Under the pieces are notes generated by a model, which worked only from the letters and a program-made list of their open reading frames with translations, was not told where the DNA came from and searched no databases. This document shows, piece by piece, positions 1 through 8,779 of a DNA stretch of 9,750 nucleotides. The stretch is taken from assembly GCA_025774865.1 (NCBI GenBank), contig JALGZO010000320.1:1-9750 (forward strand), given 5' to 3'. The translations under genes were made by a program, and so were the position numbers. Origin of the DNA: a bacterium. Its GTDB lineage: Bacteria; ARS69. The stretch's first letter is position 1. Every line of letters begins with the position of its first letter.

Positions 1-44
1 TGGACGCGTCGAGCTGGGGCGTCATCAAGGGCGGCTACCGGTAG
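1..44 (+). CDS. C-terminal end of an unidentified protein with SWGxIK tail
   Basis: Only the last 13 codons are present, reading DASSWGVIKGGYR and ending in TAG; the first two bases belong to a preceding codon. The family cannot be identified from this. The reading frame is supported by the tail's close match to the C-terminus of the next gene (ASWGDIKALYHR). At DNA level 19 of 20 bases are identical between 11-30 and 1627-1646. A strong terminator follows directly. By analogy with the neighbour this is probably also a secreted or surface protein whose tail is a conserved C-terminal signal; that role is an inference. Confidence 0.75.
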   Translation, partial: DASSWGVIKGGYR

Positions 45-69
45 GCTTCTCTCCGGTCACTGTCCCACG

Positions 70-104
70 AATCGGGCGGACCTTCGGGTTCGCCCGATTT
101 CTCT
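70..104 (+). terminator. Intrinsic terminator with UUCG tetraloop
   Basis: Bases 70-82 pair with 87-99 over 13 positions, with one G-U wobble (79/90), around the very stable tetraloop ttcg (83-86). A T-rich tail (tttctctt, from 98) follows. It lies 25 bases after the stop of the upstream gene and ends its transcript. Confidence 0.9.
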
Positions 105-151
105 TGGAGCCGCGTCCGCGGTCGCCGCACTTCTCCCGGTCGATCTTCCCC

Positions 152-179
152 TTGTCGGATCTCGCGTTTCCCCTACCTT
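152..179 (+). promoter_or_regulatory. Possible sigma70-type promoter of the LTD gene
   Basis: TTGTCG (152-157) and TACCTT (174-179) are separated by 16 bases. The -10 resembles the TATCTT and TAGCTT elements ahead of the two HU genes in this window. The match to TTGACA is 4 of 6 and the position would give a leader of about 90 bases. Apart from this and the terminator at 70-104, nothing else was found in the gene-free stretch 45-274. Confidence 0.35.
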
Positions 180-274
180 CCTGCTCCCGCGGCGTCGGCT
201 CGAACGGCCGCGGGCTCCCCACTCAGTGATCCTCTCCCCGGTGAATCATCACGCTTCTACGAGGGAGGGATCCC

Positions 275-1663
275 ATGCGATCCTGGATGCTCGTCTTGTT
301 GCCCGCCACGCTCCTCGCCGCCACCTCACGTTGTCCGGCGGAGCTCGTTCTGAACGAAATCATGCCCGCGCCCGGCACCGACTGGAACGGCGACGGCTCG
401 TTTTCCTCGCAGGCGGACGAGTGGGTCGAGATCTTCAATCCCGGCGCCGTCGCCGTCGAACTCTCGGACTACTTCGTGGCCGACGCCGGTGGCAAGGCCA
501 CTCCGCGGGCGGGAGCGAATGGACCGCTCGGCCCCGGAGGACATCTCTTCGTGACCGGCGAGATCGCCGCCGACTGGGAGACGGCAAACGGCTTCCCCGC
601 CGTCGGCCTCTCGCTCAACAACTCCGGCGACACGGTGCATCTCTTCCGGACCGCCGGCGGCACGACGACGCTCGTCGACAGCCTGACGTACTCGGGCTCG
701 GACGGAGACGTCTCGCTGGGTCGTCTCCCCGACGGCACGGAACCTTGGACGGCATTCGACGCTCTCGCGGGCGGCGCCGGCGTCCAGCCCACGCCGGGCG
801 GCACCAATGGGGGAATCGCCGCGCCGAAGATCCTGTCGGTGCACGTGGACCCGCCCTCGCCGGCCGACATCGACACGATCCGGATCTGTGCGTACGCCGG
901 TGACACCGACGGCATCGTGGAATGCCTCCTTCGCCTGTCGGAAAACGGAGGAGCGGCACAGTGGCATCCCATGACGCTGGCGGACGGGACCCCGGCCCTC
1001 GGCACGTGGGAGGCGGCGCTCACCCCGCGCCCCGCGGGCACGTCGCTGATCTGGCGCGTGCGGGTGTCGGACGGGTCGCTCGTGTCCGAAACGAACGACG
1101 AGGAGATCGTCGTGGCGGGGTCGAACTCCCCGGTCGTGCTGAACGAAATCCTGGCCGATCCGCCGCCCGATCTCGCGGGTGACGCCAACGGTGACGGCGT
1201 TCGCGGCTCGGCGGACGACGAGTTCGTCGAGCTCGTGAACCGCGGTGAGGCCCCGGTGGATCTGAGCGGGTGGGAGCTGCACGACGCCACCGCGCTCCGT
1301 CACGAGTTCGTCGTGGGCCCGGTGATCGGTCCCGGCGAGATGTTCGTCGTCTTCGGAGGCGGAACGCCGACGGGAATCCCGTCACCCGCGACCGTCGCCT
1401 CCACCGGCGGGCTCTCGCTCAACAACTCCGCGGATACCGTGAGCCTGAAGGGACCGGACGGCGTCGCCCGCGACGTTCACGTGTACGGCTCCGAGGCGAA
1501 CACCGACCAATCCCTGATCCGGGTGCCGGACGGGGACGGCGATTGGACTCGCCCCTTCGACGTGGACTTCCCGTGGGCCTTCAGCCCCGGCCTCCTGAAC
1601 GCTGCCCCGTCGGTCGTGTCCCAGGCGAGCTGGGGCGACATCAAGGCGCTCTACCACCGTTGA
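275..1663 (+). CDS. Secreted protein with two lamin-tail domains (LTD)
   Basis: The product has 462 residues. The ATG at 275 follows GGGAGGGA (263-270) at good spacing. Residues 1-22 look like a Sec signal peptide (hydrophobic core LVLLPATLLAA, cleavage after CPA). Two LTD-type repeats are visible at about 23-178 and 286-442. Each opens with LNEI(M/L) and a calcium-loop-like DxNxDG element (36-41 and 303-308), then DE(W/F)VE, and later carries LSLNN(S)xDTV (112-121 and 380-389) and S-L-x-R-x-PDG. Residues 185-281 between them resemble an Ig-like linker domain. The last residues, ASWGDIKALYHR, match the tail of the upstream gene. LTD domains occur in secreted and surface proteins and often accompany nucleases, but no catalytic domain is seen, so a structural or binding role outside the cytoplasm is most likely. 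It appears monocistronic, with a terminator on each side. Confidence 0.88.
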   Translation: MRSWMLVLLPATLLAATSRCPAELVLNEIMPAPGTDWNGDGSFSSQADEWVEIFNPGAVAVELSDYFVADAGGKATPRAGANGPLGPGGHLFVTGEIAADWETANGFPAVGLSLNNSGDTVHLFRTAGGTTTLVDSLTYSGSDGDVSLGRLPDGTEPWTAFDALAGGAGVQPTPGGTNGGIAAPKILSVHVDPPSPADIDTIRICAYAGDTDGIVECLLRLSENGGAAQWHPMTLADGTPALGTWEAALTPRPAGTSLIWRVRVSDGSLVSETNDEEIVVAGSNSPVVLNEILADPPPDLAGDANGDGVRGSADDEFVELVNRGEAPVDLSGWELHDATALRHEFVVGPVIGPGEMFVVFGGGTPTGIPSPATVASTGGLSLNNSADTVSLKGPDGVARDVHVYGSEANTDQSLIRVPDGDGDWTRPFDVDFPWAFSPGLLNAAPSVVSQASWGDIKALYHR

Positions 1664-1784: not shown

Positions 1785-3185
1785 GTGGAGTCGGTGCTCA
1801 AAGCGATCGAGAGCGGGAAAGACGCGTCGGTCACGATCCTCGAAGAGCTGCTGCGCATTCCGAGCATCAGCGCCGACCCCGACCGCAAGGGTGACGTCCA
1901 AAGGGCCGCGGAGTTCCTGGCGAACGTGCTTCGCGACTCCGGGCTGCCGACCGTCGAGATCATCCCGACCGATGGGCACCCGATCGTTCTCGGGGAATGG
2001 TGCGAAGATCCGTCCGTACCCACGCTCCTCGTCTACGGCCACTACGACGTCCAGCCGATCGTGGATCTGGCCGAGTGGTCCATGCCTCCGTTCGAGCCAC
2101 AGATCCGCGACGGAAAGATCTGGGCCCGCGGCGCAACCGACGACAAGGGGCAGGTTCTCGCGCACGTGCTGTCGGTGGCCGCCCATCTCCGGGAGACGGG
2201 AAAGCTGCCGGTCAACGTCAAGCTCCTGATCGAAGGGGAGGAGGAGATCGGCAGCGAGCACCTCGCCGAGTTCGTCCGGACGAATCGCGATCGGCTCGCC
2301 TGCGATGCCATCGCCATCTCGGACTCGGCGATGTACGCGCCGGGCATCCCATCGATCTGCATTGGCCTCAGAGGCATCGCGTACGTCGAGTTCACCGTCC
2401 GCGGACCGGCCGCGGATCTCCACTCCGGTGGCTTCGGGGGCGTCATCGAGAATCCGGCTGTCGCCCTGGCCCAGGTTCTGGCCGGTCTCAAGGATCCGGG
2501 GTCGGGAAGAATCCTGGTCGGAGGTTTCTACGACGGAGTCGAGGAGCCCACGGACGAAGAAAAGGCGGGGTGGGCGAAGCTGTCCGATCCGGATGGCCGC
2601 TACCTCGCGATGACCGGGTCGCCGCAGCTGTACGGAGAGCGGGATCGCACCACGTTGGAGCGTGTGTGGTCACGTCCCACGCTCGACGTGAACGGTATCT
2701 GGGGTGGGCACACGAAACCGGGCGAGAGCATGACGGTCCTTCCCGCCGTCGCGAGCGCGAAGGTGAGCATGCGGCTCGTGAAGAACCAGCGTCCGGCGGA
2801 CGTGGTCGCGAAACTCCGCTCTCACATCGAAGAGCACCTGCCGGACACGGTGACGCTGGAGCGGTTCGTCGAATTGCACGGCGGTGACCCCTGGACGAGC
2901 TCCGTGGACCATCCGGCGGTGCAGGCCGCGTTCCGCGCCGTCGAGAAAGGCTTCGGGAAGCCTCCGGTCCCGACGCGAGAGGGCGGCTCGATTCCCATCA
3001 TCCCGATGTTTACGGAGATCCTGGGAGCGCCCGTGGTCCTCCTGGGATTCGGACTTGGGGACGAGGGCGCCCACGGCCCTGACGAGCACTTCGACCTCTC
3101 GAACTTCCAGGCGGGCATCCGGACTTCTGCGCACTACCTCATGGAGTTCCGAGAGGTCGCGGCCGCTTCGAAGGGGAGCGCTTGA
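1785..3185 (+). CDS. M20 family zinc metallopeptidase (dipeptidase-like)
   Basis: The product has 466 residues, the usual length for M20 dipeptidases of the carnosinase/CPG2/ArgE group, cytosolic enzymes that cleave dipeptides or N-acylated amino acids. Starting at GTG 1785, the metal-site motifs are complete: YGHYD (H86, D88), ARGATDDKG (bridging D119), EGEEEIGS (E153 general base, E154 metal ligand), ISD (D180) and GAHGPDEHF (H430). The lid-domain motif LHSGGFGG (H213) is also present. No signal peptide is visible. GTG 1785 is chosen because GGGAGGAG (1773-1780) precedes it by a few bases; the more upstream TTG at 1737 lies inside the likely -10 element. It is the first gene of an operon, and its TGA overlaps the next start. 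Family assignment is secure; substrate is unknown. Confidence 0.93.
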   Translation: MESVLKAIESGKDASVTILEELLRIPSISADPDRKGDVQRAAEFLANVLRDSGLPTVEIIPTDGHPIVLGEWCEDPSVPTLLVYGHYDVQPIVDLAEWSMPPFEPQIRDGKIWARGATDDKGQVLAHVLSVAAHLRETGKLPVNVKLLIEGEEEIGSEHLAEFVRTNRDRLACDAIAISDSAMYAPGIPSICIGLRGIAYVEFTVRGPAADLHSGGFGGVIENPAVALAQVLAGLKDPGSGRILVGGFYDGVEEPTDEEKAGWAKLSDPDGRYLAMTGSPQLYGERDRTTLERVWSRPTLDVNGIWGGHTKPGESMTVLPAVASAKVSMRLVKNQRPADVVAKLRSHIEEHLPDTVTLERFVELHGGDPWTSSVDHPAVQAAFRAVEKGFGKPPVPTREGGSIPIIPMFTEILGAPVVLLGFGLGDEGAHGPDEHFDLSNFQAGIRTSAHYLMEFREVAAASKGSA

Positions 3186-4546
3186 CCGTCTTCGGGTCCG
3201 CCCGCCCGAACGAAACCCTCCGGCAGGTCGTTCACGTCGCGTTCGGCTTCGTCGCGCTGTCCCTGCGCTACCTCTCGCCGCTCGAGGCCGTCCTCCTCCT
3301 CCTGGCCGCGCTCGCCCACAACCTGTTCCTGATTCCGCGCTACGCCCGCGCCCTGTGGCGTGCCGAGGACGAGGCCCGGGGCTTCTCGATCGGTATCGTG
3401 CTCTACCCGGCCGTCGTCCTCGGGTTCGTGCTGCTGTTCCTCGATCGGCCTCCGCTCGCGGCGGCCGCCTGGGGGATTCTCGCGTTCGGAGACGGTTTCG
3501 CCACGCTCGTGGGACGAACCGTGGGCGGACCCCGCCTGCCCTGGAACTCCCGCAAGACCTGGGCGGGCACGATCGCTTACGTGGTGTTCGGCTCGATGGC
3601 GGCGGCGGGGCTTCTCGCCTTCGTGTCCCTGCGTCCCGACCAGGGTGCCGCGATCTCGTTCGTGGGCGCGCTCGGATTGTGCGCGGTCGCCGCGGTCGCC
3701 GGGGCGGTCGTGGAGTCGCTGCCCCTGAAGCTCGACGACAACCTGACCACTTCCATCGTCGTGGCCGCGACTCTCGCCGCGGGGGCGGCGATCGTGCCGG
3801 CGGAGCTCGTCGCTGCAGTCCCCGCCCTCGCAAGCCGGGCTCTTCCGGCGGCGACGATCGTCGCGGGCCTCGCTTGGCTCGCCTGGCGCGTGCGCGCCGT
3901 CGACCGGTCCGGCGCGGTCGGTGGGTTCGTGCTCGCGGTCGCGATCTGGGTCACGGGAGGTTGGGAGGCGTTCACGGTGTTCGGAGCCTTCTTCGTCCTG
4001 GGGAGCTCCGCCACGCGGATCGGTGGGTCCACGAAGGAAGCTGCGGGCGTGGCGCAGGAGGCGGGCGGGCGTCGCGGCTTCTCGCACGCGTTCGCGAACA
4101 CGGGACTCGGTGCCGGCCTTTCCTTCTTGTCGGTGGCGACCGGTCGCCCCGAGCTCTTCCGGCTCGCGTTCGCCGGAGCGATGGCCACCGCCGCGTTCGA
4201 CACCGTCTCCACCGAGATCGGGAAAGCGTGGGGCCGGCACCCCGTGCTCGTGACGACGGGCCGGCCGGTTTCGATAGGTACCGTGGGAGCGGTCTCCGGG
4301 GCGGGAACCGGGGCGGGGCTTCTGGCGGCGCTGCTGGTGGCGGGGCTGGGCGCCGGGCTCGGCCTCTACGGCACGGGCTGGATCGTCGCGGTCGTTGTCG
4401 CTGCGGCGCTCGGGGCGATGCTCGAGTCGCTCGCCGGAGCCACGCTCGGGCGGCGCGGCCTTCTCGGCCACGGCACGCTGAACTTCCTCAACACGGCGAT
4501 CGGTGCGGGCATCTGCCTGGCGATCGGCGCGTGGTTCGGGCTCTGA
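3182..4546 (+). CDS. Phytol/dolichol kinase-like domain fused to DUF92 (VTE6-like) domain
   Basis: A polytopic membrane protein of 454 residues. The N-terminal half (about 10-210) has the hallmarks of the CTP-dependent phytol/dolichol kinase family (VTE5, SEC59): R14xxxH18, GDGFATLVGRTVGG (103-116), KTWAG (125-129) and E179 followed by DDNLT (185-189). The C-terminal half (about 220-454) is a DUF92 domain, the family of plant phytyl-phosphate kinase VTE6, with FDTVSTEIG (339-347), GTVGAVSGAGT (366-376), ESLAGATLG (415-423) and LNFLNTAIGA (433-442). Known VTE5 and VTE6 act in sequence, alcohol to monophosphate to diphosphate, so one chain could do both steps on an isoprenoid alcohol; this is inference. 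The start is TTG 3182 inside TTGA, overlapping the peptidase stop by 4 bases, with AAGGGGAG at 3171-3178. Its stop overlaps the permease ATG. Confidence 0.87.
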   Translation: MTVFGSARPNETLRQVVHVAFGFVALSLRYLSPLEAVLLLLAALAHNLFLIPRYARALWRAEDEARGFSIGIVLYPAVVLGFVLLFLDRPPLAAAAWGILAFGDGFATLVGRTVGGPRLPWNSRKTWAGTIAYVVFGSMAAAGLLAFVSLRPDQGAAISFVGALGLCAVAAVAGAVVESLPLKLDDNLTTSIVVAATLAAGAAIVPAELVAAVPALASRALPAATIVAGLAWLAWRVRAVDRSGAVGGFVLAVAIWVTGGWEAFTVFGAFFVLGSSATRIGGSTKEAAGVAQEAGGRRGFSHAFANTGLGAGLSFLSVATGRPELFRLAFAGAMATAAFDTVSTEIGKAWGRHPVLVTTGRPVSIGTVGAVSGAGTGAGLLAALLVAGLGAGLGLYGTGWIVAVVVAAALGAMLESLAGATLGRRGLLGHGTLNFLNTAIGAGICLAIGAWFGL

Positions 4547-6753: not shown

Positions 6754-7038
6754 ATGACGAAGGCCGACCTGGTGGAGGAGATCGCAAACTCGACCGGCCT
6801 GACCAAAAAGGACACGGCGCTCGCAGTGGATCACCTGATCGATGCGGTGAAGGAGGCCCTGCGAGACGGCCGACACATCGAAATTCGCGGCTTCGGGACG
6901 TTCAAGGTGAAGCAGCGGAAGGCTCGAACGGCTCGGAATCCGCGAACGGGAGATCCCGTTCAGTTGCCGCCCCGTAAGGTGGCTGTTTTCAAGGTCTCCA
7001 AGGAGTTGAAGGACAAGATCTCACAAGACGGACTGTGA
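6754..7038 (+). CDS. HU/IHF-family DNA-bending protein (first copy)
   Basis: The product has 94 residues, against about 90 usual for HU. It carries the typical N-terminal helical dimer body with MTKADLVEEIA and GLTKKDT, then RGFGTF (45-50), and the DNA-inserting beta-arm with ARNPRTG (60-66), whose proline (P63) is the residue that wedges into DNA in this family. These small proteins dimerise, bend DNA and organise the nucleoid, and assist replication, recombination and transcription. The ATG at 6754 is preceded by GGAGAGGG (6742-6749). It has its own promoter and a longish leader. The arm sequence and C-terminus (ELKDKISQDGL) differ clearly from the second HU gene 0.5 kb downstream, so the two are not a recent duplication. 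Confidence 0.95.
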   Translation: MTKADLVEEIANSTGLTKKDTALAVDHLIDAVKEALRDGRHIEIRGFGTFKVKQRKARTARNPRTGDPVQLPPRKVAVFKVSKELKDKISQDGL

Positions 7039-7150: not shown

Positions 7151-7336
7151 ATGAAGACCGAAATCATGGACATCGCCGAGGCGGCGTCCTACCTCAACAT
7201 CAAGAAGGGAACGCTCTACCGGCTGGCGAAGAACGGCAAGGTCCCGGCCACGAAGATCGGGGGCCAGTGGCGGTTCAAGCGCCAGCGCCTGGATGAGCTG
7301 TTCCGTCTCGCCGTGGAGATCCGGGCGAAGCGCTGA
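7151..7336 (+). CDS. Small excisionase-type (MerR-like) helix-turn-helix protein
   Basis: The product has 61 residues. It matches the short winged-helix 'excisionase family' DNA-binding domain (HTH_17): DIAEAASYLNIKKGTLYRLA (7-26) is the helix-turn-helix, and GKVPATKIGGQWRFKRQRLDE (29-49) is the wing with the characteristic P-x-x-K-x-G-x-x-WRF core. The protein is essentially this one domain, so it would act as a small DNA-binding regulator or architectural factor. ATG 7151 is taken as start, with GGAG at 7139-7142; an internal ATG at 7166 would leave the domain intact and cannot be excluded. Despite the family name, no integrase or phage gene is nearby, so a recombination role is not supported. 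It lies between two HU genes and may be read from the first HU promoter. Confidence 0.88.
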   Translation: MKTEIMDIAEAASYLNIKKGTLYRLAKNGKVPATKIGGQWRFKRQRLDELFRLAVEIRAKR

Positions 7337-7487: not shown

Positions 7488-7525
7488 TGCCAAGAGTCTA
7501 GCCAGTGACGCTGTGGAGGAAGAAG

Positions 7526-7798
7526 ATGAACAAGGCTGAGCTCATTGAGGCTGTGGCAAAACACGCGAAGCTCACGAAGAAGGACGCCAGCAACGCCGTG
7601 AACGCCACGTTCCTCACCATCAAGAAAGAAACGAAAAAGACGAGCGGCATCTCGATCGTTGGCTTTGGTAGCTTCGCGTCCGTGAAGCGCAAAGGCCGCA
7701 AGGGTCGCAACCCGCGGACCGGCGAAGTCATCATGATCAAGCCCTCGAAGGGCGTGCGTTTCCGGCCTGGAAAGGCGTTCAAGGAGCAACTGCAGTAA
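7526..7798 (+). CDS. HU-family DNA-binding protein (second copy)
   Basis: The product has 90 residues, exactly the standard HU length. Features in order: MNKAELIEAVA and LTKKDASNAV (helical dimer body), VGFGSF (45-50), the arm with KRKGRKGRNPRTG (54-66, wedge proline P63) and the typical C-terminus RFRPGKAFKEQL. It is a histone-like DNA-bending protein of the nucleoid. The start is ATG 7526, which follows GGAGGA (7515-7520) at 6 bases from the core; a possible GTG at 7505 would add seven residues unknown in HU and place the ribosome site inside the gene. It is monocistronic, bounded by a strong promoter and a strong terminator, as expected for an abundant protein. This copy is closer to canonical HU than the first one. 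Confidence 0.96.
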   Translation: MNKAELIEAVAKHAKLTKKDASNAVNATFLTIKKETKKTSGISIVGFGSFASVKRKGRKGRNPRTGEVIMIKPSKGVRFRPGKAFKEQLQ

Positions 7799-7939: not shown

Positions 7940-8779
7940 ATGGCTCGATTCACGATCGCGCTCCGGCCCACAATCGCGATCATCGTCCTGTCCCTCTCCG
8001 CCGCGGATGCATCGCTCGGCGACGCGCTCTCCGACCTCGCTCATGCCGTCGAGAAGTTTCGCGGGATCGGGCACGAAGGAATCACTTCGTACCGCGTCGA
8101 TTTGCGGATTCCGGACGAGGGGGAAGAGGAATCGATTCCCCTCGAGGAGATCTGGCAAAGCCCGCGCGATCTTGTCCTGCGGGCGGCCACACCGGAAACG
8201 CCCACGGCCATGGTACGTAGCCTCGCGCTCTATCTCGAACCTCTGTACGTGGCGCGGACGTCGCTCTTGGATGCCGATCTCGGCGCGCACGTGGAACATC
8301 TGCGGGAGAACACGGTCGTGGAAGCGGAGACGACGGCGACCGGCACCCGGATCGTCCTGCAGTTTCCCGACGATCCCGAGGCGACGCTGGAGACGTTTCG
8401 AGATGTCGCCCGGCTGGCCGCCGAGATAGACGGGCAGGGGAGGATGCGTCGGCTGGAGTTGGCCCTGCGCGAGGAAGAAGACCCGCTGACTCTCGAGTGC
8501 GAGTTCGATCCCGCCCACGAGCGCCCGCAGCCCGACCTGGCCGTGTGGACGCTGCCGAGTCGGGAACAAGTCCAGATCCGCACGATGTTCCGCGATGAGG
8601 GCGGACGATCGCTCCCGGCTTCGCGGTACGTCGTCTTCCCGAGCCGGTACGATCCCGGTGAACGGGAAGAGATCCTCGTGCACTACGGCGCCTACGTCAT
8701 CAACGCGGAGATCCCCGCCGATTTGCTCACCGATCCGGGCTCATTTCGCTATGACGTGAACGGCCTGGTCGCAAACTGA
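7940..8779 (+). CDS. Exported protein of unrecognised family
   Basis: The product has 279 residues. ATG 7940 is chosen because GGGAG (7930-7934) precedes it and because translation from there starts with a good Sec signal peptide (positive MARFTIALRP, hydrophobic IAIIVLSLS, probable cleavage after ADA at residue 24). The mature part is acidic, with alternating beta-like stretches such as YRVDLRI (51-57), LVLRAA (78-83), LALYLEPLYVA (95-105), RIVLQF (137-142), RRLELAL (170-176) and VQIRTMF (211-217), then VFPSRYDPGEREEILVHYGAYVIN (232-255). The pattern is vaguely like LolA/LolB-type periplasmic carriers, but no diagnostic motif is seen and I do not assign it. It has no cysteine lipobox. It lies 44 bases ahead of a membrane glycosyltransferase and is probably co-transcribed with it. 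Confidence 0.82.
   Translation: MARFTIALRPTIAIIVLSLSAADASLGDALSDLAHAVEKFRGIGHEGITSYRVDLRIPDEGEEESIPLEEIWQSPRDLVLRAATPETPTAMVRSLALYLEPLYVARTSLLDADLGAHVEHLRENTVVEAETTATGTRIVLQFPDDPEATLETFRDVARLAAEIDGQGRMRRLELALREEEDPLTLECEFDPAHERPQPDLAVWTLPSREQVQIRTMFRDEGGRSLPASRYVVFPSRYDPGEREEILVHYGAYVINAEIPADLLTDPGSFRYDVNGLVAN

Follow-up and report, generated by a model that had tools for sequence, protein, structure and literature searches.

Exosortase, rhombosortase, MYXO and sortase tags require a hydrophobic segment and a basic cluster. To our knowledge, the described signals of the type IX secretion system (T9SS), types A, B and C, are all domains of about 70 or more residues. Type A CTDs fold as a beta-sandwich of seven strands and are bound through PorV (PMC10994853, PMC12618676), and signals of types B and C run to about 100 residues or more (PMC10202324, PMC12618676). 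Type B genes often adjoin their PorP/SprF-like shuttle (PMC12618676).

The tail described here, the W-tail, resembles the type A CTD (TIGR04183, PF18962) in its extreme C-terminal position, its occurrence on signal-peptide proteins, its tens of copies per genome and its cargo families. Unlike that domain, it spans 9–16 residues, is predicted to form a short helix or to be flexible, and is not recognised by any CTD model. No C-terminal Ig-like beta-sandwich is predicted in the tail: the window protein's final ~25 residues are modeled as disordered, and the Fn3 tail protein described below has only a low-confidence helix. In both the W-tail and the type A CTDs of one genome (G070), a Lys lies 4–5 residues before the terminal basic residue with hydrophobic residues between, a weak likeness that is partly built in by the search. 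The shuttle-adjacent genes of type B signals (TIGR04131) recall a single-copy tail protein linked to porD and PorQ. We saw no sequence resemblance between type B or type C CTDs and the W-tail, and both families are absent among the 25 most frequent NCBIfam matches listed for 98 tail proteins (E up to 1), so neither is a common feature. Like PEP-CTERM/exosortase, GlyGly-CTERM/rhombosortase, MYXO-CTERM and LPxTG/sortase signals, the W-tail tags the C-terminus of exported proteins that otherwise have nothing in common; unlike those signals, it is accompanied by a transmembrane-like window within the final 60 residues in just 3 of 179 proteins, and by LPxTG in none. A tag of the LPxTG, PEP-CTERM, GlyGly or MYXO type was rejected on this lack of a hydrophobic segment. 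These comparisons agree with the original prediction, which had found the tail to resemble neither LPxTG, PEP-CTERM nor the usual T9SS tail.

Two adjacent genes in the window share a C-terminal tail

The window, the whole 9,750-nt stretch of DNA analysed, is the complete contig C323 (G000:C323) of a 785-contig MAG. Its tail-bearing genes and their surroundings are as follows.

3–44, + strand: 3′ end of a gene truncated at the contig edge, reading DASSWGVIKGGYR-stop; one of the 22 matches in the genome
15–44, + strand: W-tail copy 1 (WGVIKGGYR), ending the truncated first ORF
84–97, + strand: terminator-like hairpin after the truncated gene (scan match only)
275–1663, + strand: exported double-LTD protein of 462 aa with the W-tail at its end (Pfam LTD, 9.3e-31, two stretches)
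1631–1663, + strand: W-tail copy 2, WGDIKALYHR-stop (motif search; kept in homologues)
1679–1705, + strand: terminator-like hairpin of 10 pairs after the LTD gene (scan match only)

The shared C-terminal tail originally reported for these two genes is thus present as described, and a recount reproduces the reported identity of 19 of 20 bases between positions 11–30 and 1627–1646. The double-LTD protein begins with a signal-peptide-like N-terminus (MRSWMLVLLPATLLAATSRCPAE, by a simple in-house predictor) and terminates in QASWGDIKALYHR-stop, its final residues also being given as ASWGDIKALYHR; its tail is slightly off-consensus, with YHR in place of YR. In an AlphaFold2 model, the LTD regions are folded and residues 437–462 have pLDDT below 50, falling to ~25–31 in the last blocks.

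Elsewhere in the window, a small HTH_17 (excisionase-like) gene lies between two HU-family genes (6754–7038, 7151–7336 and 7505–7798), all with ordinary Pfam domains. A 454-aa membrane protein (3182–4546) has a DUF92 match confined to residues 226–425, its N-terminal half having no Pfam match. A 279-aa exported-looking protein (7940–8779), flanked by an HU gene and a PMT-like glycosyltransferase, is not matched by any Pfam model.

The tail recurs at the C-terminus in several phyla

We searched for the degenerate DNA pattern W-G-x-[IVM]-K-x-x-[YF]-(x)-R-stop, with the reversed pattern as control. The source genome contains 22 matches and none to the reversed pattern, so the recurrence of the tail is not due to chance. 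Five genomes of the source phylum, this one included, have 19–34 matches each. With a stricter pattern, counts across a 386-genome sample are bimodal (8–54 copies in 17 genomes, 1–2 in 26 and none in 343), and the reversed pattern is absent from every genome. A scan of 84,980 species yielded 101 stretches with the tail, from MAGs that their depositors mainly named Eisenbacteria, Krumholzibacteriota/Krumholzibacteriia, Latescibacterota, ‘Gemmatimonadetes’ or ‘bacterium’. In the literature searched, we found no paper joining Eisenbacteria or Krumholzibacteriota with type IX secretion, and none printing the string WGSIKA, absences that are weak evidence. On one contig from a MAG named Planctomycetota SJ778 (L068, JADZDL010000390.1), the ends of three W-tail genes are very similar to those on an Eisenbacteria contig (L101); the Planctomycetota contig is probably misbinned, its genome having no SprA or type A CTD match.

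Removing the stop requirement adds few matches in tail-rich genomes (62 vs 58 in G060, 66 vs 59 in G070 and 60 vs 54 in G071), indicating that ~90% of occurrences directly precede a stop codon. The consensus is [PS]V[ED]xS[ST]WGx[IV]K[SAG][LM][YF]R-COOH, with ~9 residues strongly and 16 weakly conserved. Among 182 tails, the invariance of W, G, K and R was built into the search pattern, and the Leu or Met at the second residue after K (162 of 182) was partly fixed in the collection scan. The pattern left free the [ST] before W (164 of 182), the Ser, Ala or Gly directly after K and the upstream P-V-E preference. Synonymous codons vary at the fixed residues, with all four Gly and all six Arg codons in use; judged from these sequences, the tail is conserved at the protein level. 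Variants outside the search patterns, including ...TSWGLIKSLYNK, WGALKALYR and tails with Phe for Trp (ASFGQVKATYR, ASFGSLKATYR), were found at L139:960–1457, L139:3621–4196, L116, L275 and L286, so our tail counts are underestimates.

Unrelated, export-biased proteins carry the tail

Signal-peptide-like starts, as called by a simple, crude in-house predictor, are present on 138 of 150 tailed ORFs (92%) compared with 114 of 435 neighbours (26%, P=2e-48), and nearly all those on tailed ORFs are type I. In the same 150-protein set, the tail occurs 139 times at the terminus and never internally. After trimming of the tail, these proteins form 55 clusters that show no similarity to one another, 38 of them singletons. 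Their Pfam domains are diverse and include LTD, beta-helix, CHRD, cohesin, pectinesterase and caspase-like domains. No Pfam or NCBIfam model describes the tail, and the most widespread family is found in at most 6 of the 98 tail proteins compared. NCBIfam matches include the choice-of-anchor V and J domain families, whose names refer to a choice among anchors of the CTERM and sortase kind. There are also partial matches to rhombosortase- or PEP-CTERM-dependent families, which we did not take as proof; one such match that we inspected spans only ~100 of 1315 profile positions.

As many as 59 different genes in one genome carry the tail. For 44 of the 130 tails in collection loci, another tail lies on the same strand within 2 kb, from which we conclude that local duplication happens. 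Considered as an amphipathic helix, the tail has a hydrophobic moment of 0.44, compared with 0.34 for permuted residue order; 44 of 200 permutations equal or exceed the observed moment.

The original prediction had suggested that the tail behaves like a sorting or anchoring signal. Its presence on many unrelated exported proteins supports this putative function and shows that the observation, though correct, understates the extent of the tail. Neither of the two outcomes named as refuting it was observed: the motif is not missing from other exported proteins of the genome, and it is not the end of a single paralogous family. The prediction had also proposed looking for a co-occurring peptidase or translocon. 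Genes neighbouring tail genes revealed no recurrent machinery, and no tail-specific receptor, shuttle or peptidase was found; a translocon does co-occur, as described below.

The tail co-occurs with the T9SS translocon

We compared 103 genomes drawn from relatives, 33 tail-bearing and 70 tail-less. All 33 tail-bearing genomes encode SprA, compared with 24 of the 70 without tails (P=9e-12), a co-occurrence that could reflect shared ancestry. Overall, an SprA match is present in 37 of 39 tail-bearing genomes, counts of presence and absence that are limited by the incompleteness of MAGs. Exceptions among the named MAGs are G068, whose 3 tails lie on an apparent contaminant contig, and G079, which has 8 tails and 52 type A CTDs; we assume that incompleteness accounts for its missing SprA match. 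Type A CTDs are numerous in all but one of the 39 genomes. In the other direction, many T9SS-positive genomes have no W-tail. Two attributes of T9SS substrates are found here, a Sec signal peptide (138/150) and an SprA translocon (33/33 sampled tail-bearing relatives).

The tail and type A CTDs exclude and appear to replace each other

A type A CTD profile built in this work matches none of the 150 tail ORFs, compared with 19 of 114 signal-peptide-positive neighbours (P=5e-8), and no CTD is present on the 179 W-tail ORFs of a larger set. By NCBIfam, TIGR04183 is found on at most 1 of 98 tail proteins, compared with 14 of 80 signal-peptide-bearing neighbours. In 1.03 Mb sampled from the tail-rich genome G070 as a proteome background, there are 10 tails (relaxed motif) and 44 CTDs, with no protein carrying both.

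Homologous proteins can nonetheless differ in which of the two they carry. The double-LTD protein of the window keeps its W-tail in the source genome and two others (G000, G002 and G003), and the tail has diverged in G064. In G007, which is T9SS-positive and has no W-tails, the homologue carries a type A CTD at its end. CTD-bearing homologues exist for 23 W-tail ORFs; in one pair, the W-tail protein of L075 aligns with the CTD protein of L110 over almost its full length, and such pairs also occur inside the single genome G070. As far as these alignments indicate, the W-tail and the type A CTD stand in for one another on homologues.

A single-copy tail protein adjoins porD

Twelve genomes outside the tail-rich set each encode one conserved protein of 130–165 residues, consisting of a signal peptide, one Fn3-like domain and a terminal TWG[SA]IKA[MLI]FR (for example L287:4540–4935, L288:4537–4965 and L289–L299). 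It occurs in T9SS genomes, and in other phyla. No Pfam or NCBIfam model names this protein. In an AlphaFold2 model, its Fn3 domain is confident and a short C-terminal helix covers the tail at low confidence (pLDDT ~60). In the cargo of T9SS genomes, the same type of Fn3 domain is followed by a type A CTD, so the single-copy protein represents another exchange of a CTD for a W-tail.

In two families, the gene adjoins porD with PorQ/PorV-family genes nearby. Its immediate neighbour in G005 is PorD (DUF4835, 4.5e-25), and a PorV/PorQ-family gene comes after that; in G055, it has PorD (3e-15) on the upstream side and a PorQ-like gene (2e-34) on the downstream side. The distance to PorD (1e-11) in G331 is two genes. 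In F. johnsoniae, the extended SprA translocon includes PorD among its subunits (PMC10994853). The Fn3 tail protein is a candidate new T9SS accessory protein. Going beyond the original prediction, the tail is tied to the T9SS, at the level of genome comparison, by co-occurrence, by replacement of tail and CTD on homologues and by this porD-linked protein.

Discussion

We favour, with moderate confidence, a reading of the W-tail as a new short linear C-terminal sorting signal on Sec-exported proteins, most likely read by the T9SS. The C-terminal restriction, export bias, unrelated carriers, nesting within SprA-positive genomes, exclusion and replacement of CTDs and porD-adjacent tail protein are all computed; we infer the reading of the tag by the T9SS, and likewise the binding component, cleavage and final location. 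Sec and signal peptidase I would deliver the tailed protein to the periplasm. Its flexible C-terminal tag would then be recognised by the T9SS (the SprA translocon with a PorV/PorQ/PorP-type shuttle), replacing the 70–100-residue CTD, and the protein would exit through the outer membrane or be displayed on it. A T9SS tag of 9–16 residues would be unusual, because the described signals have about 70 residues or more.

The unlikeness of the W-tail to any CTD, in sequence as well as length, would be expected if a separate receptor or transpeptidase, merely occurring in T9SS lineages, read the tail and held the cargo at the outer membrane or surface. The existence of T9SS-positive genomes without W-tails fits this alternative, as does the abundance of type A CTDs in the same genomes, where two signals might serve two routes. 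However, the sampled tail-bearing genomes are all nested within SprA-positive ones, CTDs replace W-tails on homologues, and the single-copy tail protein adjoins porD; we consider a separate reader unlikely, if deserving of some weight. Equally tentative is the idea that the tail marks an independent protein-sorting system, served by its own receptor or transpeptidase, through which several uncultured phyla akin to Eisenbacteria, Krumholzibacteriota and Latescibacterota would sort dozens of exported proteins per genome.

The position of the single-copy Fn3 protein beside porD, like that of an accessory subunit, and the predicted form of the tail, a flexible extension with a short low-confidence helix, would also suit a periplasmic docking peptide, by which cargo binds a T9SS-associated component (e.g. 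PorD/SprE or a PorV-family barrel) and stays unsecreted. We find such a role improbable: the cargo mostly has domains of surface or extracellular type (LTD, beta-helix, CHRD, cohesin, pectinesterase-like), and up to 59 tailed genes per genome are too many for subunits of one machine.

Despite the near-identical DNA of the two window copies and the 44 closely spaced tails, it is very improbable that the tail is the end of one paralogous domain family, a reading refuted by the 55 dissimilar tail-trimmed clusters, or that a mobile element or short DNA repeat was copied between genes, a reading rejected on codon diversity at fixed residues. The AlphaFold model of the window protein also places the tail outside the folded domain.

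If the T9SS does read the W-tail, types A, B and C would be joined by another C-terminal signal, much shorter than any of them. The phyla that carry it, which lie outside Bacteroidota, are ones in which the T9SS has received very little study. Being portable and 9–16 residues long, the tag makes what the T9SS translocon reads directly testable. Furthermore, because no annotation model that we checked recognises the tail, it offers a simple sequence handle for predicting the surface proteome of several uncultured phyla.
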